Shown: piece by piece, positions 1 through 10,716 of the stretch
Position numbering within the stretch: the first letter of the stretch is position 1
How the letters are laid out: each line of letters begins with the position of its first letter
Source: Sphingomonadaceae bacterium
GTDB lineage: Bacteria > Pseudomonadota > Alphaproteobacteria > Sphingomonadales > Sphingomonadaceae
Length of the DNA: 39,741 nt
Reading direction: 5' to 3'
Assembly (NCBI GenBank): GCA_020630295.1
Contig: JAHDBR010000020.1
Span: 1 to 39,741 of the forward strand
The notes under the pieces: model-generated
What the model saw: the letters and a program-made list of their open reading frames with translations, nothing else
Database searches by the model: none
Told to the model about the DNA's origin: nothing
Made by a program: the position numbers and the translations under genes

Positions 1-2
1 CC

Positions 3-116
3 GACGCCGCCCGCTCAGAGAAAGAGGTCATGGACAGCATCACCGCCAAAATCGCGAAGTTCAGAGAGCGCGAGGACGCGATGCAGAAACTGATTGAGGC
101 GGAGGGGAATGTTTAG
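3..116 (+). CDS. C-terminal end of an unidentified protein (5' partial)
   Basis: An open frame enters from the left edge and ends at a TAG at 114-116, leaving 37 visible residues. They are strongly charged and heptad-like, with Lys/Glu/Arg alternating with Ile/Leu/Met (for example KIAKFREREDAMQKLIEAEG), so the protein probably ends in an amphipathic or coiled-coil helix. Too little remains to name the family. A recombinase or phage-type protein would suit the accessory character of the next 3.5 kb, but this is a guess. A short perfect hairpin follows the stop (121-135). Confidence 0.5.
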   Translation, partial: DAARSEKEVMDSITAKIAKFREREDAMQKLIEAEGNV

Positions 117-403
117 TTTTCTTGAGCCCCTCAAGCGCCGGGCGCGAGGCATTCGCCTCGCTTGGCTTCGCTCTACCGAGCGGCGTGCGGTCGCACGCTG
201 ACTGCCGTGACCAAGTGCGGGGCAACTTCGCTATCTAGCACCAAGTCCACAGAGCATCACCGCTAGCTTGGAATGGATCGGTTCGCGACCAGCGAACCGC
301 AAGCGCGACTGCGCGTCGCCCGTTAGGGCGGAAGCCTAAGGGAGCGGATGCGACCGCCGGCGCCTGAGGCCAAAACAAACAACACACTGGAAAACCCCAC
401 CCC
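117..403. other. Non-coding, hairpin-rich stretch
   Basis: I find no credible gene here. A minus-strand frame at 235-423 has the low-complexity Trp/Arg/Ala-rich look of an artefact. The stretch contains a run of short perfect inverted repeats: 121-135 (CTTGAG, 3-nt loop), 144-161 (GCGAGGC, 4-nt loop), 183-198 (GCGTGCG, 2-nt loop), 279-299 (CGGTTCGC, 5-nt loop), 305-319 (GCGAC, 5-nt loop) and 323-339 (TTAGG, 7-nt loop). It is GC-rich, unlike the AT-rich cassette that follows. Confidence 0.6.
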
Positions 404-580
404 ATGACCATCACGATCCACAAGAACTTCCTGAAACAAGGCGACCCTGCCCTGACTCACCCATGGGGCAAAAGCTACAGCCCACTACGCCCGAACGGCG
501 TGCCCAACAGGCCGTTGCCTACCGACCCTCAAGCCGAGCGCGAGTGGCTGGCGCGGGAGTGGTTGGGGAAAGCTGTCTAA
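404..580 (+). CDS. Possible 58-aa small protein, unknown
   Basis: An ATG frame of 58 codons ends in TAA. The product begins MTITIHKNFLKQGDP and ends in a Trp-rich amphipathic helix (EREWLAREWLGKAV). Amino acid use is balanced and protein-like, which argues weakly for a real gene. There is no recognisable Shine-Dalgarno sequence, since the bases before the ATG are C/A-rich. It lies between the hairpin-rich stretch and the cassette promoter. I recognise no family. It could be a small phage or island protein, or chance. Confidence 0.3.
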   Translation: MTITIHKNFLKQGDPALTHPWGKSYSPLRPNGVPNRPLPTDPQAEREWLAREWLGKAV

Positions 581-738
581 CTCAGTCCAAAATTCGGCCG
601 CTCTCACAGCGTTAAGCTCACGGTCAGAAGATCTGGCAATCATCACAGAACTTACCGCGAGTTGCCATCAGGTGCTAAAACGAACTGTGGCGAGCCGGCT
701 GCGAGGTGCAATTTGCTTCATCGCTCCAAAACCAAATA
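581..738. other. Intergenic, nothing recognised
   Basis: No ORF, RNA gene or repeat could be supported. Composition shifts from mixed to AT-rich towards the right, marking the approach to the AT-rich cassette. Confidence 0.4.
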
Positions 739-785
739 CTCTGGTGATAAGTATTCCTTGTATGGAATATTTAGATCACCTAGAG
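739..785. promoter_or_regulatory. Large imperfect dyad, candidate operator of the HTH-ASCH cassette
   Basis: The left arm is CTCTGGTGATAAGTATTCC (739-757). After a TTGTAT spacer, the right arm GGAATATTTAGATCACC continues as TAGAG (764-785). The core TATTCC/GGAATA is perfect. The outer GGTGA/TCACC and CTCT/AGAG blocks also pair, with a 2-nt and a 1-nt bulge and one G-T mismatch. The dyad ends 26 bp before the GTG start of the XRE-type regulator. A weak promoter reading (TTGTAT, 17 bp, TAGAGA) would lie inside it. Autorepression by the downstream HTH protein is the obvious inference. A structured 5' leader is the alternative. Confidence 0.5.
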
Positions 786-811
786 AACCAAAAAAGGTTT
801 AGGGAACAACA

Positions 812-1603
812 GTGACACAACTACTCGGAAAAGTGATCGAAGCGTCGGCCTTGAAATCCGATCCACGTAATGAGGAGGTTGGTCCTGCTTTAAAAAAGCT
901 TAGACAAATGTCGCAGCTTACACAACGAGAAATGGCCTCGCGTTTAAGTGTTCAACAATCTGCTATATCGAAGATCGAAAAAGGCGGTGATGTTCATATT
1001 TCTACCATTCGAAAATATGTTGAAGCGCTAGGAGCTACGCTCAGAATGGGCGCATCATTCCCAGCGGAGGCTCCATTGGCACTCCATATTTGCGATGCGT
1101 TTGATATTGAATGCGGTAATGACGATCAATTTGTACTACCAATCTTAGGTGACGATGCGTTTCGTCCTCAACGTGATGTCGTATTGTCAATCCGCCCGCA
1201 CTATTCTGAACGCATTCTTGACGGTCACAAAACCGTGGAGCTAAGACGACGGTTTCCGGTGTCAGCGCCTCAAGGAACGATAGCATATATCTACTCTACG
1301 TCCCCCGTCCGGGCAATAGTTGGAATGGCCCAAATTGATGATGTTTTAAAACTGCCGATTGACAAGATCTGGGCAGATTTCGAAACAAAAGCATTTATTG
1401 AACGAGCAGACTTCGATAAGTACTTTGATGGATTGGGTATGGGTTTTGCTTTACTTTTTAAGAACGTCAGGTCATTTGAGAATCCAATACCTCTCGAGGA
1501 ACTGCGAGAGAGGTTCAACTTTGAACCACCGCAATCATTTTTATATGCGAAACAAAATCTTCGGAAGGCGTTAGAAAATGAGTACTCAGTCGTATCTGAT
1601 TGA
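812..1603 (+). CDS. HTH (XRE)-ASCH domain regulator, first gene of the cassette
   Basis: This 263-aa protein has a helix-turn-helix of the XRE/Cro type at about residues 24-78, with LTQREMASRLSVQQSAISKIE as its recognisable core. An ASCH/PUA-like domain follows at about 123-245, carrying the hallmark G-x-K-x-x-E-x-R (G138, K140, E143, R145). It resembles the family described as predicted transcription regulators with HTH and PUA-like domains. ASCH domains are thought to bind RNA or nucleotide ligands, so it may sense a nucleic-acid ligand and control its own operon. The GTG start is set by AGGGA at 801-805, six bases upstream. The 3' end overlaps the next gene by 26 bp. Codon use is AT-rich compared with lepA, which suggests transfer. 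The ligand is unknown. Confidence 0.85.
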   Translation: MTQLLGKVIEASALKSDPRNEEVGPALKKLRQMSQLTQREMASRLSVQQSAISKIEKGGDVHISTIRKYVEALGATLRMGASFPAEAPLALHICDAFDIECGNDDQFVLPILGDDAFRPQRDVVLSIRPHYSERILDGHKTVELRRRFPVSAPQGTIAYIYSTSPVRAIVGMAQIDDVLKLPIDKIWADFETKAFIERADFDKYFDGLGMGFALLFKNVRSFENPIPLEELRERFNFEPPQSFLYAKQNLRKALENEYSVVSD

Positions 1604-3119
1604 TACGAACATTCTCATTGGCCTAGAAGATAATAGTGCTGTTAAGCCTGCCTATGCCCGCTTTTCCAGTTTATCTGCAAAACACAAAGTCGAAATTTTT
1701 GTCCACGAAGCTGCACGCGATGACATCGCTCGAGACAAAAATGTATCGCGAAGAAAAATCTCCCTTAGTAAAATCGCCAAATACCAAATTTTGGCGAAGC
1801 GCAAAGGGCTAAAGCAATCAGATCTTGAGGACGAATTTGGTAAGCTTAAAAAGCCGAATGACGTTGTCGACGCAACTCTTTTGCACGCACTACAAATCAG
1901 CGCCGTCGACTTTCTTGTAACTCAAGACAAAGGCTTGCATGAGCGAGCCCAGAGAAACTCATCAGATTTAGGTCGTCGGGTTCTCTTTGTCAGTGATGCT
2001 ACCGAACTTCTCGCGACCACTTATGAGCCGAAATCAGTAGGAATTCGCCACGTCGCTGATGTCAAGGCTCATACTATCGATCACAAAGATACCTTTTTCG
2101 ATAGTCTTCGCGAGGGCTATCCTAAGTTTGACAGTTGGTGGCAAGAAAAGTGTGTGAGGCAGCGGCGGTCGTGTTGGGTCGTTTATGATGACGATCAGTT
2201 AGCCGGACTCATAGTTCGGAAAGATGAAAAGTCTTCAGACACGGATGCCAAAACTCCCGCCCAGAAAATTCTGAAAATCTGCACATTTAAGGTCAGGCCT
2301 GAGATGAGGGGGGTAAAGCTCGGCGAGCTACTTTTGAAACAAGTTTTGTGGTTTTGCCAATCGAACAGTTATGATTTAACATATGTTACTACATATGACG
2401 ACCAAGCATTGTTGATTAACTTGCTTGAATATTATGGCTTCACAAAGACTGGCGAAAAAGAAGACGGAGAGTTGATTTATGAGAGAGGTTTTTCACAATC
2501 GCGAGCAAGTACGGACGATCACGATGACCAGTTTTTACTCGCTAGGACGCACTACCCCAGATTCATCAAAAACAGCGAAACGCTTGGGTTCGGCATCCCA
2601 ATAAAAGAAGACTATCACGACACTTTGTATCCTGACTTGTGGGATCCACATCAACCGGATCTTTTTCAGGGAACCTCTGTCGCGGAGCAACCCACGCGGC
2701 CCGGTAATACCATCAGGAAAGTCTATCTTTGCCGCGCGCCTTCAAACCTTGGCCCTTCCGGATCAATTTTATTTTTCTACAAGGGCAAGTCCAATGATCC
2801 TCCATCGCAAGCGATCACGGCGATTGGCATTTTAGATGAGGTCACCCTCGCAACGTCGACGAAAGAACTAATGGTCAAGACAGGCGGTCGTTCTGTGTAT
2901 AGTAAGCAACAATTATCTGAATGGAATGCTTCCGAAACTAAACCTGTGAAGGTTATAAATTATCTTTTAGTGAACTATATAAGGCCACCTGTTGGTATAT
3001 CCGAACTTCAGGAATTAGGCGTAATTAGCGGGAAAAATCCACCTCAGTCTATTTATTCAATTCCGTCAAAATCTCTAGGCTTGTTAATCGATCGGAGTAA
3101 TTTGGGATTTGATACGTGA
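1578..3119 (+). CDS. PIN nuclease-GNAT acetyltransferase-PUA-like fusion protein
   Basis: This 513-aa protein has three parts. Residues 1-150 form a PIN-like domain: LIDTNILIGLED gives D9, VHEAARDDI gives E44 and D48, VVDATLLHAL gives D98, and TQDKGLHERA gives D117, matching the acidic metal-binding set of PIN ribonucleases. Residues 155-305 look like a GNAT acetyltransferase, with a motif A stretch VRPEMRGVKLGELLLKQVL and YGF near the end. Residues 375-513 resemble an ASCH/EVE/PUA-like beta-barrel (ILFFY, AIGILDEV). The start overlaps the upstream gene, with GGAAGG at 1563-1568, and the end overlaps the next gene in a GTGA. A PIN-GNAT fusion next to an HTH-ASCH gene suggests an RNA-targeting effector, toxin-like. 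Substrate and acetyl acceptor are unknown. The PIN call is firm, the C-terminal PUA-like call less so. Confidence 0.85.
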   Translation: MSTQSYLIDTNILIGLEDNSAVKPAYARFSSLSAKHKVEIFVHEAARDDIARDKNVSRRKISLSKIAKYQILAKRKGLKQSDLEDEFGKLKKPNDVVDATLLHALQISAVDFLVTQDKGLHERAQRNSSDLGRRVLFVSDATELLATTYEPKSVGIRHVADVKAHTIDHKDTFFDSLREGYPKFDSWWQEKCVRQRRSCWVVYDDDQLAGLIVRKDEKSSDTDAKTPAQKILKICTFKVRPEMRGVKLGELLLKQVLWFCQSNSYDLTYVTTYDDQALLINLLEYYGFTKTGEKEDGELIYERGFSQSRASTDDHDDQFLLARTHYPRFIKNSETLGFGIPIKEDYHDTLYPDLWDPHQPDLFQGTSVAEQPTRPGNTIRKVYLCRAPSNLGPSGSILFFYKGKSNDPPSQAITAIGILDEVTLATSTKELMVKTGGRSVYSKQQLSEWNASETKPVKVINYLLVNYIRPPVGISELQELGVISGKNPPQSIYSIPSKSLGLLIDRSNLGFDT

Positions 3120-3670
3120 AGCAAATTAATATCGCTGCGATTGGGATTTCAGGAGTTGGAAAAACAACATTTTTAAATGCCGTTGCAAGACGAGTTAGGT
3201 TTCAACATCTAACAGGCGGGAGCTTAATATCAGCTGCAAGGCAAAAATCTTTAGCAAACAGAGATAGCCTAAGATTGGATGATATTGCAAAAAACCAGCG
3301 TTTGCTGATCGACGGTTTTAACGCTGCTCGATCGCCAGAATATGAAGTGGCGATCTTAGATGGGCATATTCTGATAGATGCCGATAGCGAAATACAAATC
3401 ATCGATTACAAGATTTTTGAAGAGCTAAATATTGCCGCATTTTTGCACATCAGTACAACTGTCGAAAGGATTTCCTATCACCGATCTGCCGACACTTCTC
3501 GTAAGAGGCCCATCAGAACTGAAACCGAACTAGCAGAGCAACAAGGCTTGTCCGAAAACTATACAAAAAGCGCTGCCAGCGCCCTCAGATTGCCTTTCAA
3601 ACGCTTCGAACTCAAAGATGCAGACATTGCTGCGGACTTTATCACGAGAATAAAATTATCAGCGGACTAA
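3116..3670 (+). CDS. Small P-loop ATPase / nucleoside-kinase-like protein
   Basis: This 184-aa protein has a Walker A loop, GISGVGKTT (residues 10-18), and a Walker B-like VAILDGH (78-84, D82). A basic segment follows, YHRSADTSRKRPIRT (121-135), like the arginine-rich lid of adenylate-kinase or polynucleotide-kinase-type P-loop enzymes. It starts at a GTG that overlaps the stop of the PIN-GNAT gene (GTGA), so translation is probably coupled and the product is part of the same system. It may phosphorylate a nucleotide or RNA end, or act as a regulatory ATPase; the sequence does not decide. Codon use is AT-rich like the two upstream genes. Its stop lies only 31 bp from the convergent lepA stop, with no hairpin terminator in between. 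Confidence 0.8.
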   Translation: MKQINIAAIGISGVGKTTFLNAVARRVRFQHLTGGSLISAARQKSLANRDSLRLDDIAKNQRLLIDGFNAARSPEYEVAILDGHILIDADSEIQIIDYKIFEELNIAAFLHISTTVERISYHRSADTSRKRPIRTETELAEQQGLSENYTKSAASALRLPFKRFELKDADIAADFITRIKLSAD

Positions 3671-3701
3671 AGTTTTTTAGCCGAACCAAGACCGCCTGTC
3701 A

Positions 3702-5519
3702 TCACTCCTCCCCCATCCGCAGCGCGGCAATAAACGCCTCCTGCGGAATACTTACATTGCCGTATTCGCGCATCTTGGCCTTACCCTTTTTCTGCTTTTC
3801 CAGCAGTTTCTTCTTCCGCGAAATATCGCCGCCGTAGCATTTGGCGGTCACATCCTTGCGCATTGCGCTGATCGTTTCGCGGGCGATCACTTTGCCGCCG
3901 ATGGCTGCCTGTACGGGGATTTTGAACAGGTGGCGCGGGATCAGGTCTTTTAGCCGTTCGCACATACCGCGGCCCCGCGCCTCGGCCACGTCGCGGTGGA
4001 CGATCATGCTGAGCGCGTCGACCGGTTCGCCGTTTACCAGAATGCCCATTTTCACCAGATCGCCTTCGCGCAGGCCGATCTGTTCGTAATCGAAGCTGGC
4101 ATAGCCCCGGCTGATGCTTTTCAGGCGGTCGTAGAAATCGAACACCACTTCGTTGAGGGGCAGTTCATAGGTCACTTGCGCGCGCCCGCCGACATAGGTC
4201 AGGTCCAATTGCACGCCGCGCCGGTCCTGACACAGTTTCAGGATGCTGCCGAGGTAATCATCGGGGGTGTAGATCACCGCCTTGATCCACGGCTCCTCTA
4301 TACTGGCGATGCGGCTGGGGTCGGGATAATCGGCGGGGTTGTGCAGCATCAGCTCGCCCGCAGGTTCGGTCTTCGATTTGTTGAGCTGGATGCGGTACAC
4401 GACCGAGGGGGCGGTGGTGATCAGGTCCAGATCATATTCGCGGGTCAGCCGTTCCTGGATAATCTCCAGATGGAGCAGCCCCAGGAACCCGCAGCGGAAG
4501 CCGAAGCCGAGCGCGGCGCTGGATTCGGTTTCAAAGGTGAAGCTGGCATCGTTGAGGCGCAGCTTGGCGATGCTTTCGCGCAGTTTTTCGAAATCGGCGG
4601 CGTCGACGGGGAACATTCCGCAGAACACCACCGACTGGACTTCCTTATAGCCGGGCAGAGGCTCTGTCGCGCCGTTCTTCACCGTGGTGATCGTGTCACC
4701 CACGCGGGCCTGCTCCACCTCTTTGATCTGGGCGGTGATGAAGCCGATTTCGCCGGGGCCGAGTTCGGGCAATTGTTCGATTTTCGGGCGCATACAGCCG
4801 ACGCGGTCAATCAGATGCTCGGTTTCCCCGACCATGAATTTGACGTTGAGGCCTTTCTTGATGACGCCGTCAATGACCCGCACGAGGATGACCACGCCGA
4901 GATAGGGATCGTACCAGCTATCGACGAGCGAGGCCTTTAGCGGTGCGTCGCGGTCCCCCTTGGGCGCGGGGATTTTGGCGACGACTTGTTCGAGGATATC
5001 CTCAATCCCGATGCCCGATTTGGCGGAGGCGAGGACGGCTTCCGATGCGTCAAGGCCGATGACGTCCTCGATTTCCGCGCGGACTTGCTCCGGCTCGGCG
5101 GCGGGGAGATCGATTTTGTTGATGACGGGGACGATTTCGTGGTCATGTTCGATGGATTGGTACACGTTGGCGAGCGTCTGCGCCTCCACCCCCTGCGCCG
5201 CGTCCACCACCAGCAGCGCGCCCTCGCACGCGGCCAGGCTGCGCGAAACTTCATAGGCGAAATCGACGTGGCCGGGGGTGTCCATCAGGTTGAGCTGATA
5301 CGTCTCGCCATCATGGGCGGTGTATTCGAGGCGGACGGTTTGCGCCTTGATGGTGATGCCGCGCTCTTTCTCGATATCCATATTGTCGAGCACCTGCTCC
5401 GACATCTCGCGCGCGGTCAGCCCGCCCGTATGTTGGATTAGCCGATCGGCGAGCGTCGACTTGCCATGATCGATATGCGCGATAATGGAAAAATTGCGAA
5501 TTTTTGAAAGTTCAGTCAT
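3702..5519 (-). CDS. lepA: Elongation factor 4 (LepA), ribosome back-translocase GTPase
   Basis: The product is 605 aa, the usual LepA length. The N-terminus carries the G1 loop AHIDHGKST followed by [16 protein letters not shown] and NKIDLP, the standard translational GTPase motifs. The C-terminus has the LepA-specific region ending in [18 protein letters not shown] and [13 protein letters not shown]-4 acts on stalled or mistranslocated ribosomes and is peripheral to the inner membrane. I prefer the ATG at 5519; a GTG immediately upstream (5522) would add one residue but overlaps the G-rich ribosome binding site. It lies downstream of two c-di-GMP genes and may share readthrough from them. 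Composition is typical of the host, in contrast with the adjoining cassette. Confidence 0.97.
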
Positions 5520-5604
5520 CACCCCCGCAATTAGCGACAGCTCACCCGAATGTCAGCCACTAAGTGCAGGATAAATCCCGTTCAGTAAATGTGGTGAAAT
5601 TGCG

Positions 5605-7821
5605 TTACGATCGCCGGCCAATTGCTGCTATGTCCATCTGAACAAATTGCGGCCTAGTGGGGTTCCCATCAGCCCTTCTATTTTGGACCAACGGGTAGTT
5701 CCCCGGCGGAAGGGCCTTAAGAGGCATGCCGGCAGCGGCCAGTGCGTAAGGAGATACGCGGTGCCGGGTGCATAGTCCGTCTGCGCCATCGCTGACCAGC
5801 GGCACCTCGAACTCGACTCCTTGTGAATGTTCATCCGACCGCCGCACTGCGCCGATCGCAAGCTGACCCTCGCCCAGGTCCAGAATCAGGTTTGTGCCGC
5901 GAGGGATATTCAGAACACCTTCAATCATCGCGCCAGTCGCAGAAAGGTTGCGTAATACGGCTTCGTAGCGGTGGTCTTCGTGGATAACGCCGATTTTCCG
6001 AAAAACTGTTTTTCGGTCCGCGCGATACTTTGCAGGACCGACGGGCGTAAATTTCAGATTCCCATCGGCAAAGCGGGCCATGACGTCTTCATGCGGCATA
6101 GCTCTGGAGAAAACGAAGCCCTGAATCAGATCCGCACCATGATCAATCACTAGCGATAGCTCGTCTTCAGACTCCACCCCTTCGGCAACAGTTTGCATAC
6201 CTAATGCTTGGGCAAGACTAACCACAGCCGTGATGATTGCGGAATTATTGTTACCTTCGGCTGTCGAACCACGGACGAAGCATTGGTCAATCTTCAGCTT
6301 GTCAAATGGCGCATCGCGCAAATAGCCAAGGGATGAATAACCGGTACCAAAATCGTCTAACGCCAATCGCACGCCAAGGTCTTTCAATTGCGCAAACATA
6401 CGATTTGTCGCGTATGGATCGCTCATAAAGACGCTCTCGGTAATCTCCAGTTCTAGACGCTTCGGTGAAATTCCTGAGGCATTAAGAGCCCGCTCTACAA
6501 TGGCAGGGAATTCCTCATTGGCAAACTGAACCGCCGACACGTTGACTGCCACACGGACGGTCGAAGGCCATTGAGATGCATCCTGGCAAGCGCGCATAAG
6601 TGCCCACTCGCCAATATCGGCAATGATGCTCGTTTCCTCGGCAATGGGAATGAATTCAGCCGGGCTGATCCACCCGCGTTCCGGATGGTTCCAACGCATG
6701 AGCGATTCAAAGCACTTTGCCTCCCGCGTTTCACTGCAAACGAGCGGTTGATAGTGCAATTCCAGCTCATCGCGTTGCAAGGCATCGCGCAAGTCTTCTT
6801 CAATTTGCTTGCGAAGCCGCGCACCATCCTTGAGGTCGCTGGCATAAAAACGAAACTGCCCTCGCCCGCCGCCCTTAGCTGCGTAAAGTGCCAAATCCGA
6901 ACTGCTGACCAGCTCTTCTGAGTCAAGTCCATCGTATGGAGCGATGGCGATGCCTACGGAAGTCCCGATAATCGCTCTGCTTCCGCTTAGCGAATATGGC
7001 TGCGATATCATCTGGATCAATCGCTGGGCCAGATCGCCCAACTGCCCCCGGTCATCCATGTCGGGCAGGATAATCTGAAATTCATCGCCGCCTAGGCGTC
7101 CGATTTCGCCCTTTTCTCCGACAACACTTTTCAACCGTTGGGCCACTTGCTTGAGAAGCTCGTCTCCAGCCGGATGACCAAGAGTATCGTTGACCTGCTT
7201 AAATCGGTCCAAATCCAGCATCATTAATGCACAGCTACGCTTAGCTGTCTTGAACGCTGTCAAAGTAGCCGTCAGACGCTTCTCCATCGCATGCCGGTTG
7301 GCCAATCCTGTCAGCGTATCGAATTTTGCCAACCGCGATGCGTCGAGCGTGCGTTCGCGAATACTCGTGATATCCTTTGCGCCGCCCCGATAGCCTAAAA
7401 ACTTGCCGTCCGCGCTTATCTGCGGCTTGCCGGAAACAGACCACCAAATTTCAGCATCCGACCCGGAAACGGAAATACGAGCAGACAACTCACTGAAAGA
7501 GTTTCTGGCACTCATCAGGAATGGCAACGGCCGCTCTGCCTTCTCGGGATCGTCGTTCTTGTCAGGTATAAAAAGGCTGGTCAGTTGCTGGCCTACCAAC
7601 TGCTCCGAAGTTTTTCCCAAAGCTTTGGCTGCGCTGTCGGAAAGATACATCAGCGCTCCGGTGGGATCAGTTGCCCAAAACCAACCTAAATCTAGATCCT
7701 CAAAATTGTTGAGAAGCTCGACCCGTTTCATCAAATCGCCTTTGCCAATCGGTGCGTGGGAACCCGCATGATCAGCGGAAGCTCCACCCGTTATCCGCGC
7801 AAAAAGACCGTTCTTACTCAT
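5605..7821 (-). CDS. Soluble PAS-GGDEF-EAL-PilZ cyclic-di-GMP protein
   Basis: This 738-aa cytoplasmic protein has a PAS domain (about 40-150), GGDEF (163-325, motif at 244-248), EAL (340-590) and a PilZ-like domain (598-705, with NLSATG matching the D/N-x-S-x-x-G motif). GGDEF makes c-di-GMP, EAL degrades it and PilZ binds it. The cyclase motif is intact, but the product-inhibition RxxD before it reads GEKG. The EAL motif is ESLMRW rather than EALLRW, although the other EAL signatures (NVS, ELEITES, DDFGTGYSS, KIDQ, VAEGVE) remain. No membrane segment or signal is visible. It starts 30 bp after the stop of its larger paralogue, so the two form a tandem pair and a probable operon. The net direction of activity cannot be predicted. 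Confidence 0.93.
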   Translation of the reverse strand: MSKNGLFARITGGASADHAGSHAPIGKGDLMKRVELLNNFEDLDLGWFWATDPTGALMYLSDSAAKALGKTSEQLVGQQLTSLFIPDKNDDPEKAERPLPFLMSARNSFSELSARISVSGSDAEIWWSVSGKPQISADGKFLGYRGGAKDITSIRERTLDASRLAKFDTLTGLANRHAMEKRLTATLTAFKTAKRSCALMMLDLDRFKQVNDTLGHPAGDELLKQVAQRLKSVVGEKGEIGRLGGDEFQIILPDMDDRGQLGDLAQRLIQMISQPYSLSGSRAIIGTSVGIAIAPYDGLDSEELVSSSDLALYAAKGGGRGQFRFYASDLKDGARLRKQIEEDLRDALQRDELELHYQPLVCSETREAKCFESLMRWNHPERGWISPAEFIPIAEETSIIADIGEWALMRACQDASQWPSTVRVAVNVSAVQFANEEFPAIVERALNASGISPKRLELEITESVFMSDPYATNRMFAQLKDLGVRLALDDFGTGYSSLGYLRDAPFDKLKIDQCFVRGSTAEGNNNSAIITAVVSLAQALGMQTVAEGVESEDELSLVIDHGADLIQGFVFSRAMPHEDVMARFADGNLKFTPVGPAKYRADRKTVFRKIGVIHEDHRYEAVLRNLSATGAMIEGVLNIPRGTNLILDLGEGQLAIGAVRRSDEHSQGVEFEVPLVSDGADGLCTRHRVSPYALAAAGMPLKALPPGNYPLVQNRRADGNPTRPQFVQMDIAAIGRRS

Positions 7822-7851
7822 TATCCCAACCGTTCAAGTTTATAGATTTTC

Positions 7852-10635
7852 TCATGCCGACTTACGAATTAAGTCGCCGGGCTTTAAAGCCGATGTGGGA
7901 GCAGGCGATACGCCAGCCACGCCGTGTTTTTCCAAATCAATGGGCTGAGAGAATTGCACGCCCATTTGGTCGCCGCGGCTCCATATTGTCGTAATCTGCA
8001 ACACGTCTGTTGCGGACATCGCCAAATTCATCACCGTGCCTGGGGGCACATTCCACAGACCCTCAACCATGGCACCGCCAACACCAATGTTACGAATAGT
8101 TCCGTTGTAATAATTGCCTGCATGTTCCAGCATGACCTTACGCAACATTTTCTGGCGCGGCGGCCGTGAAGATTTCGGTCCAGTCGGTGTCATCGTGTCA
8201 CCGGACATCAATTGCGCCGTCGCTGCTTCACAACTCATCGCTTTGGCGTAAATATAGCCTTGGATGTGGCTGCACCCTAACGCACGGACCAATTCCAGCT
8301 CATCGAGCGTTTCCACGCCTTCTGCGGTGGTATCCATGCCGAGCGACTCCGCCAGCGAGGTAATCGATGTAATGATTGCGCCATTGCGGCTTCCAGGCTG
8401 GGTCGCCCCGCGAACGAAGCTTTGATCGATCTTGATCTTGTCGAAAGGCGCTTTTTTCAAATACCCTAGAGACGAATAACCGGTACCGAAATCATCCAGC
8501 GCCAGACGGACACCAACGCGTTTAAGCGCTGTAAACATGGCGTCAGTTCCTTCGTCATCATTCAAGAAGACGCTTTCCGTAATTTCAAGTTCCAGACGCG
8601 CCGGGTCAACGCCAGATCGCGCAAGGGCATTGGTCACGATCGCTGGCAATTGCGGGTTTGCGAATTGCAGCGGCGAAACATTTACCGCGCATCGAATATG
8701 CTCGGGCCATCGCGCCAGATCAGAACATGCGGTGCGAATTGCCCATTCGCCGATTGCTGCGATTAGTCCGGTGTCTTCGGCGATGGGTACGAATTTGGCT
8801 GGTGACAGCCAACCTTTGACAGGGTGGTTCCACCGAAGAAGCGCTTCAAATCCAGCAATGCGATTGTCTTTCGCGTACACAACCGGCTGGTAGAATAGTT
8901 GCAAATCACCATTGGCGATCGCATCGCGCAAATCTTCTTCCATCTTACTGCGCGCTTCTGCAGCTGCGTGAAGGTCATTGGAATAGAAGTGATACCGACC
9001 GCGCCCGCCGTCCTTTGCCGCATAAAGCGCCAGATCGGAATTCCGGATCAACGCTTCGCTTGTCACACCATCATCGGGCGAAACTGCGATCCCGATCGAT
9101 GCGCCAATTACGACCCGTTGCCCTTCAATAGAATATGGCTGGGAAAGCGAGTGAATAATCTCGTGTGCTAATTGCCCCAGCTGGTCCCGTTCGACGCGTC
9201 CCAGAATGACGACTTTGAACTCGTCGCCGCCCAAGCGCCCCACGCGGCCCATTGCGCCAACCGCTCGTTTCAACCTTTGCGATACTTGTTTCAGCAAAGC
9301 ATCGCCAGCCGGATGGCCCAAAGTATCATTAACGTGCTTGAATCGGTCCAGATCGAGCAGGAAAACCGAACATTCACGTTGTTGCTCTTGCGGAGATGCG
9401 AGAATTTTCTCGAGCGTCTGCTGCATCTGGAACCGGTTCGCCAAGCCGGTCAGCGAATCATATTGCGCCAGCCTGGTAACGCTCTCCTCGCTCCGCTTTT
9501 TCTCTGTCAGATCGGTCCCGGATCCGCGGAAGCCGACGAAGTTTCTGAAACTGTCATAAGCGGGCCGGCCGTTAATTGACCACCAGCGTTCTTCACCCGG
9601 GGTTGCTGCACGCACACCAAGTTCAAGGAAAGAAGACCGTGCCGACATATGGAAGGCCAGCGTCCTTTCGCCCTCTTGCCCTTCATCGCCCAGATCAAAA
9701 AGATCTGTAAACGGGCGACCTATGATCTGGGATTCATCTTGGTGCAGAACCTTAATGATCGAAGGCGATACATAGCTCAACAATCCGCGGCGATCGGTTT
9801 CCCAGAACCAGCCCAAACCGGTTTCTTCGTAATCACGCAGAATATCTTCGGCCCGGTTCCGCTCGCGCTCGCGCGCTTGCTCAATTTCCTCCCGGCTTTG
9901 ATTGATCTTGCCCTGATAATGGCCGACCAAAGCGATCGATAGCGTGGCGAAAAGTAGGGCGAGCACAATCTCCAAGTTCACGACACACAGCGCAGCCGCT
10001 GACCATGATCCGACAACACAGACTGCCTGCTGCACGGTGCGGCCGGACAGAATACTGGAACACATTACGTTAAACGCCAGAATGGCAGCGATGATCCACG
10101 GCCATCCCAAAGTTTGTTCGGCAGCCCAAAGACCGAATATCACACCATAACTTACAGGCGGGATAGCTATGCAGGCCCACGCCAAAATCACGCGCGATCG
10201 CGAAGGAGATTTGGATTCCCGTTCTCGGATCGCGAAGCGTTTGGATGCAAAGCCGATAGCAGCCCCGACAATAGCGACGCATATGATCCAAACGTTTGGC
10301 ACCGTGCGGGCGAGCAGAGACGCCGCAGGCACACAGAACACAATGGCGAGCGCCGTCACCCACCAGTCAATCGGTAAGATATTCTTCGCTTGACGGGAAA
10401 AAGCGGGATCGCGCTTTGGCTTTTTGTCGCGGCTGAGAGAGCGACGTTCTGCCACCCGGCGGCTTTGCGCCGGCTGTGCTCGTGTTTTTTGGGCCTGTTT
10501 CTTTGGCGCCTGTTTCTTTGGAGCCGCTTTGTCGTGCTGTTTTCTCTCAGGCACTGCGCGCAGGGGGTTAGCTGCGTTTGCACGCACTGGCTCATGCCCA
10601 GTCCTCATCCGGTTTTGCGCTTTTGGCTCGCCCAT
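7852..10635 (-). CDS. Membrane-anchored PAS-GGDEF-EAL-PilZ cyclic-di-GMP protein
   Basis: This paralogue of the next gene downstream has an N-terminal extension. Its first 85 residues or so are very basic, with a KKQAPKKQ-type repeat. Several hydrophobic helices follow over about 150 residues, an MASE-like sensor region. PAS, GGDEF (intact GGDEF in GRLGGDEFK), EAL (canonical EALLRW, DDFGTGYSS, AEGVE) and a C-terminal PilZ-like domain (NIGVGGAM) come after. The RxxD inhibitory site reads GAMG, so feedback inhibition is probably lost. The start is uncertain: I take the ATG at 10635 (927 aa), but a GTG at 10683 extends the frame by 16 residues and no choice has a well-spaced Shine-Dalgarno. It is divergent from phaC. 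Confidence 0.9.
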   Translation of the reverse strand: MGEPKAQNRMRTGHEPVRANAANPLRAVPERKQHDKAAPKKQAPKKQAQKTRAQPAQSRRVAERRSLSRDKKPKRDPAFSRQAKNILPIDWWVTALAIVFCVPAASLLARTVPNVWIICVAIVGAAIGFASKRFAIRERESKSPSRSRVILAWACIAIPPVSYGVIFGLWAAEQTLGWPWIIAAILAFNVMCSSILSGRTVQQAVCVVGSWSAAALCVVNLEIVLALLFATLSIALVGHYQGKINQSREEIEQARERERNRAEDILRDYEETGLGWFWETDRRGLLSYVSPSIIKVLHQDESQIIGRPFTDLFDLGDEGQEGERTLAFHMSARSSFLELGVRAATPGEERWWSINGRPAYDSFRNFVGFRGSGTDLTEKKRSEESVTRLAQYDSLTGLANRFQMQQTLEKILASPQEQQRECSVFLLDLDRFKHVNDTLGHPAGDALLKQVSQRLKRAVGAMGRVGRLGGDEFKVVILGRVERDQLGQLAHEIIHSLSQPYSIEGQRVVIGASIGIAVSPDDGVTSEALIRNSDLALYAAKDGGRGRYHFYSNDLHAAAEARSKMEEDLRDAIANGDLQLFYQPVVYAKDNRIAGFEALLRWNHPVKGWLSPAKFVPIAEDTGLIAAIGEWAIRTACSDLARWPEHIRCAVNVSPLQFANPQLPAIVTNALARSGVDPARLELEITESVFLNDDEGTDAMFTALKRVGVRLALDDFGTGYSSLGYLKKAPFDKIKIDQSFVRGATQPGSRNGAIITSITSLAESLGMDTTAEGVETLDELELVRALGCSHIQGYIYAKAMSCEAATAQLMSGDTMTPTGPKSSRPPRQKMLRKVMLEHAGNYYNGTIRNIGVGGAMVEGLWNVPPGTVMNLAMSATDVLQITTIWSRGDQMGVQFSQPIDLEKHGVAGVSPAPTSALKPGDLIRKSA

Positions 10636-10677
10636 ATGGCGGCCATGCCAAATTCCCTTTGAAAAACAGTTAATGCG

Positions 10678-10716
10678 GCGCACATTATGAGTGACTGATT
10701 TTACAATGTGATGCGC
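10678..10716. promoter_or_regulatory. Dyad in the divergent c-di-GMP gene/phaC promoter region
   Basis: GCGCACATT (10678-10686) pairs with AATGTGATGCGC (10705-10716) with a 3-nt bulge, across an 18-bp spacer. A second inverted repeat, CTGCGT/ACGCAG (10733-10738 and 10748-10753), sits in the phaC leader. Either could be a repressor site controlling phaC. I cannot assign a regulator. Confidence 0.3.

Follow-up and report, generated by a model that had tools for sequence, protein, structure and literature searches.

A PDC-M11 operon at a lepA-side locus of a Sphingomonadaceae bacterium: a probable toxin-antitoxin-like defence module, probably acquired horizontally

Three genes lie near the start of a contig of a Sphingomonadaceae bacterium; the whole stretch of DNA analysed, 39,741 nt long, is referred to here as the window. 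They encode an HTH-ASCH protein, a PIN-GNAT-EVE protein and a kinase-like P-loop protein (genes 1 to 3, Table 1). All three open reading frames are intact, lie where the initial annotation had placed them and overlap in succession, the second pair by 4 nt (GTGA). The remark in that annotation that the genes are AT-rich was borne out as well, with a GC content of 44-47% over 1-4 kb versus 52-60% (about 55%) in the flanks. The same gene order, strand and 26-nt overlap between the first two genes recur in many alphaproteobacteria, which indicates that the trio is more than a chance arrangement. We consider it real, well delimited and probably functional. No Rfam match was found in window positions 1-6000, and scans for promoters and terminators scored fewer hits here than in shuffled sequence.

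Table 1. Genes, domains and predicted regulatory site of the trio (window coordinates)
Feature	Position	Strand	Remarks
Predicted operator, palindrome ATTCC-N6-GGAAT	753..768	.	begins 59 bp ahead of the gene 1 GTG
HTH-ASCH gene (gene 1)	812..1603	+	GTG start, 263 aa; PDC-M11B relative; predicted autorepressor and antitoxin/sensor
HTH (Xre/HipB-like), residues 24-77 of gene 1	881..1042	+	HTH_3 E=3.4e-9 (residues 27-77); TIGR03070 couple_hipB 5.9e-8
ASCH domain, residues 119-255 of gene 1	1166..1576	+	PDC-M11B 1.3e-32; ZmASCH 5guq 1.5e-21
Gene 1/gene 2 overlap, 26 nt	1578..1603	+	identical length in nearly all HTH-ASCH loci
PIN-GNAT-EVE gene (gene 2)	1578..3119	+	ATG start, 513 aa; PDC-M11A; predicted effector
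PIN nuclease domain, residues 1-150 of gene 2	1578..2027	+	Pfam PIN_3 match weak
GNAT acetyltransferase domain, residues about 155-305 of gene 2	2040..2492	+	Pfam GNAT at about 174-294
EVE (PUA-superfamily) domain, residues about 320-505 of gene 2	2535..3092	+	PDC-M11A; Foldseek best match ZmASCH 5y6c
AAA_17 adenylate-kinase-like P-loop gene (gene 3)	3116..3670	+	GTG start, 184 aa

The trio is a new copy of an already predicted, uncharacterised family. PADLOC assigns genes 1 and 2 to the phage-defence candidate PDC-M11: PDC-M11A covers the whole of protein 2 (residues 6-501, E=5.5e-116), the PDC-M11B models match protein 1 in its ASCH part (1e-32) but do not extend to its HTH, and the kinase of gene 3 matches no PDC-M11 model. 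Bell et al. 2020 (PMC7641849) described the combination of (PIN)-GNAT-EVE, ASCH and AAA_17 as a predicted toxin-antitoxin or defence operon and reported ASCH fused to HTH in alphaproteobacteria; the authors give credit to Iyer et al. 2013. All domains, the domain order of the effector and the alphaproteobacterial fusion are common to those operons and the trio, with no essential difference. The initial annotation was thus mistaken in knowing of no named system with these parts, and a novel system is ruled out by the PADLOC matches together with Bell et al. 2020. To the known family, the present analysis adds a predicted operator, three types of gene fusion, reciprocal linkage of the genes and a lepA-side hotspot.

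A relative already bears toxin and antitoxin names. In Escherichia phage PhiR47_2 (PV340567.1), the depositors annotated a PIN-less pair as GevT toxin and GevA antitoxin, in which GNAT-EVE is followed by an overlapping ASCH gene and both proteins match PDC-M11 models, as do proteins 1 and 2 of the trio. The pair differs from the trio in lacking the PIN, HTH and kinase parts and in its reversed gene order, and the names are annotation only. Literature searches yielded no paper behind these names and, for PDC-M11 and GevT/GevA, no experiment on growth or phage infection with a PDC-M11 member. Two other PADLOC candidates, PDC-M63AB and PDC-S04, gave no protection when tested.

The effector protein is matched end to end by PHROG_10674 (1e-202). 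Its PIN assignment is based on the PDC-M11A match, the description by Bell et al. 2020 and the conserved acidic residues of a PIN nuclease (D9, D95, D98 and D117), which, with N11 and E17, are invariant in 27/27 PIN-bearing relatives; residue 49 is D or E. The PIN part of the predicted structure is of low confidence. The GNAT residues K233, T236, G245, G249, G287 and F288 are invariant in all 31 relatives. The PIN-GNAT order with a PUA-like domain proposed initially stands, and the PUA-like domain of gene 2 can be specified as EVE from its PADLOC family, Bell et al. 2020 and its fold. The operon thus combines, as had been suggested, a nuclease domain, with its signature intact, and PUA-like domains, two from that superfamily (ASCH and EVE). 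With query P0002, an IMG/VR scan returned no relative and a PDB sequence search nothing usable.

The HTH-ASCH protein is matched by PHROG_11553 (2e-81), and its Pfam ASCH match at residues 125-189 scores just under the Pfam cut-off. As in type II toxin-antitoxin pairs, a DNA-binding regulator with a HipB-like HTH is encoded by the first of two overlapping genes. In an alignment, the ASCH residues K140, E143, R145, Y161 and S242 are invariant in 30/30 relatives. The ASCH domain is 35% identical to ZmASCH (PDB 5guq/5gus) of Zymomonas mobilis, whose genus also belongs to the Sphingomonadaceae; ZmASCH is a reported weak RNase in which mutation of Tyr47 or Ser128 reduced nucleic-acid binding and Y47F also cut RNA cleavage. 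These two residues of the single-strand RNase correspond to the invariant Y161 and S242, whereas its Lys53 is replaced by Arg in the window protein, and ZmASCH has no HTH. The ZmASCH gene (L098:5956-6402, 100% match) is solitary and kept in four Zymomonas genomes; no PIN-GNAT-EVE relative was found beside it in these four, nor genome-wide in the one searched whole. ZmASCH is therefore ruled out as a characterised part of the trio's system. Since this weak RNase lives without an effector in Zymomonas, an ASCH protein need not be an antitoxin.

Ahead of gene 1 lies a palindrome, ATTCC-N6-GGAAT, whose usual form is ATTCCTTGNAAGGAAT. In 19 of 24 loci it begins 44-63 bp ahead of the HTH-ASCH start codon, whereas it is present in 21/9158 other 160-bp segments of these loci (0.23%). 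The loci are related, so that they are not independent draws. The upstream sequence around it has visibly diverged between loci. We predict that this conserved element is the autoregulatory operator of the HTH-ASCH operon.

The gene 3 protein matches AAA_17 (E=7.1e-17), has the Walker A motif GISGVGKT and, in the alignment, invariant residues N60, Q61, D82 and H84. Its AF2 model (pLDDT 87) has the fold of archaeal adenylate kinase (6pjw, 1kht; TM 0.76), which shares the Walker A motif. Identity to these enzymes is, however, about 19%, the score against the adenylate kinase equivalog PRK04040 is 43.7 bits versus a cut-off of 155, and gene 3 is found beside the effector.

The initial annotation had pointed out the regulator-first layout and proposed profile searches and gene neighbourhoods across distant genomes to check whether the trio is conserved as a unit. 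Loci were drawn from genomes, plasmids and phages, with profile searches on single domains. A same-strand ASCH gene adjoins or is fused to the effector gene in 37/37 full-length PIN-GNAT-EVE loci, 24 of which also have the kinase. The homologues are thus linked rather than scattered singly, often in defence surroundings, and the gene order is kept in many alphaproteobacteria. Beyond the alphaproteobacteria, the linkage holds in actinobacteria and archaea as well (L040, L041, L049). The PDC-M11 family spans bacteria and archaea and is carried on plasmids and prophages. The linkage is also reciprocal: among plasmid records, the effector accompanies the kinase in 12/12 and full-length HTH-ASCH in 8/8. 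Distances between the proteins co-vary (r=0.95 for effector and ASCH, 0.86 for effector and kinase, 0.82 for ASCH and kinase; 0/2000 permutations reached these values), which shows joint inheritance rather than physical interaction. All three pairs of proteins are joined by natural fusions: effector and kinase in L009 (690 aa) and L012 (557 aa, with EVE shortened), ASCH and kinase in L057 (325 aa), and effector and ASCH in L058 (638 aa).

Several variants of the locus were recorded. On a Sinorhizobium meliloti plasmid (L036:5235-7935), the effector gene carries a frameshift and that of the kinase is split into two frames, with HTH-ASCH intact; sequencing error is possible. Such a pattern would be expected if HTH-ASCH were an antitoxin. 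Permuted relatives with the order GNAT-PIN-(middle)-EVE (L102:3833-6420 and L103:5932-8501; 716 and 706 aa) have an overlapping ASCH gene, and PADLOC recognises their EVE part only; one further relative is located on a Caulobacter plasmid. A gene that appears HNH-like by eye (motif CDRCNNYFARK) adjoins the trio in L001:8319-8990, L002:8297-9211, L004:8294-8989, L050:11542-12006 and L104:6722-7444; in L050 it replaces the kinase, with a 4-nt overlap, and the L004 copy has no PADLOC match. Rhizobial loci also carry a PIN-less GNAT-EVE gene near the trio. In four of them (L001:3687-4799, L002:7128-8216, L003:6830-7885, L004:7070-8125) it is divergent and lacks a separate ASCH partner, and a conserved gene of 384-386 aa comes after it; in L043:2273-3487 it shares the strand of the trio and is accompanied by a separate ASCH gene.

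Of 61 close genomes, one carries the trio, and all seven congeners lack it. The operon, patchy in its distribution and low in GC, most likely entered the bacterium horizontally. In sister genomes, the corresponding slot is bounded by a conserved gene on the upstream side and by the 3' end of lepA, and its cargo differs: SIR2-STALD in G004, an AbiL pair in G003, DRT UG5-nitrilase in G006, PDC-M02A/B in G002, and a C5 methylase with HATPase and Methyltransf_35 in G007; nothing defence-like was found in the slot of G005, one of six congeners examined. Outside the genus but within the family, this side of lepA carries a C5 methylase together with Vsr (G017), GmrSD proteins (G009, G013), an HNH protein (G023) or an IetA-like ATPase (G024), and the nine remaining genomes examined, judged from ORF lists, have no obvious defence cargo there. 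The region on the 3' side of lepA is thus a defence hotspot, both in this genus and in several others of the Sphingomonadaceae (window 590-3701; L078-L082, L109-L123). Genes at this hotspot and near plasmid copies of PDC-M11 include AbiL, DRT UG5-nitrilase, SIR2, GmrSD, LmuB, type IIG R-M and a pAgo-associated REase; such a defence-gene association agrees with the assignment to PDC-M11. With another defence system in most sister genomes, the slot is a place to seek new ones. Its upstream border in several sister genomes is marked by a 58-aa ORF (window 404-580) and a phage terminase small subunit-like gene (L078:3888-4712).

The best explanation, to which we give a probability of roughly 0.58, is that the trio is a horizontally acquired PDC-M11 operon that is autorepressed and probably acts as a toxin-antitoxin-like, RNA-targeting defence. 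The initial proposal of a toxin-antitoxin or defence module is thus probable, given the regulator in first position, the ASCH linkage, the intact PIN signature and the defence surroundings. We infer the toxicity of the effector, its trigger and its target, and the roles of the GNAT domain and the kinase, as follows. The Xre-type HTH of gene 1 would repress the operon at the palindrome, and its ASCH domain would also hold the PIN-GNAT-EVE effector in check. Infection would alter an RNA, DNA or nucleotide ligand in the ASCH or EVE pockets, so that repression and inhibition would be lifted. EVE would then guide the effector onto the target molecule, probably RNA or tRNA, and PIN cleavage, GNAT acetylation or both would halt translation or the phage itself. 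The third protein, kinase-like and often present, may be a dispensable modulator. In favour of this explanation we count the PDC-M11A/B matches, linkage, fusions, co-divergence, the operator, the invariant PIN residues, the lepA slot, patchiness, the GevT/GevA naming and the L036 locus; against it, the solitary ZmASCH, the lack of protection by PDC-M63AB and PDC-S04, and the low-confidence PIN model. For tests, the window copy offers a complete operon with a defined predicted operator and invariant residues at the catalytic sites, and the natural fusions predict a complex.

The main rival, which we regard as rather unlikely, is modification-dependent restriction, in which ASCH and EVE would read modified phage bases and PIN and GNAT would act on the phage molecule without self-toxicity. 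Modified bases are read by EVE and ASCH domains, and PIN-GNAT-EVE has been described in association with type I R-M (Bell et al. 2020). BapA, a protein with the ASCH fold, acts on phage DNA that contains glucosyl-5hmC, and a type IIG enzyme adjoins the L049 copy. However, PIN domains are typically RNases, and the HTH-first layout, the putative autoregulatory palindrome and the intact HTH-ASCH beside a broken effector in L036 fit a toxin-antitoxin better. It is also conceivable, although unlikely, that the products form one three-protein complex, in which ASCH and EVE would be paired readers of modified or damaged RNA (e.g. tRNA), GNAT would mark it, PIN would cut it and the kinase-like subunit would sense nucleotides or process ends. 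The pairwise fusions are consistent with such a complex without proving it; if real, it would be a composite RNA-surveillance immune machine without a characterised counterpart.

Bell et al. 2020 proposed that PIN-GNAT-EVE is a counter-toxin which destroys the acetylated aminoacyl-tRNAs produced by invading PIN-less GNAT-EVE toxins. PIN-less GNAT-EVE does occur in prophages, and the rhizobial genes described above (L001-L004, L043) lie close to the trio, but most trio loci, among them that of the window, lack a GNAT-EVE gene in their vicinity and the effector retains its own GNAT motifs, which makes this reading quite unlikely here. A stress or housekeeping RNA regulator with no phage role, as the conservation of ZmASCH in Zymomonas without an adjacent effector might suggest, is improbable, because full-length HTH-ASCH is always accompanied by the effector in the records examined and the trio is patchy, low in GC, located in a hotspot, and plasmid- and prophage-borne. 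We consider highly improbable a writer/eraser pair in which GNAT would acetylate a base and ASCH remove the acetyl group like YqfB, an ASCH-protein amidohydrolase active on N4-acetylcytidine (ac4C): K140 and R145 match YqfB Lys21 and Arg26 by spacing, but in the Lys21-Thr24-Glu74 triad the nucleophile Thr24, without which YqfB is inactive (T24A), is replaced by the invariant Glu143, which rules out a YqfB-like eraser role.

Two further observations concern the surroundings of the operon. The window begins at a contig end, and contig C26 of the same genome probably precedes it, since C26 ends with the same 49 bases. This contig carries a 13-kb insertion relative to sister genomes (L077:4855-18355), probably upstream of the window, with genes that we take to resemble those of poly-gamma-glutamate synthase. 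At window positions 5605-10683, there are two adjacent, similar large genes, PAS-GGDEF-EAL-like by eye, which probably represent a tandem duplication.
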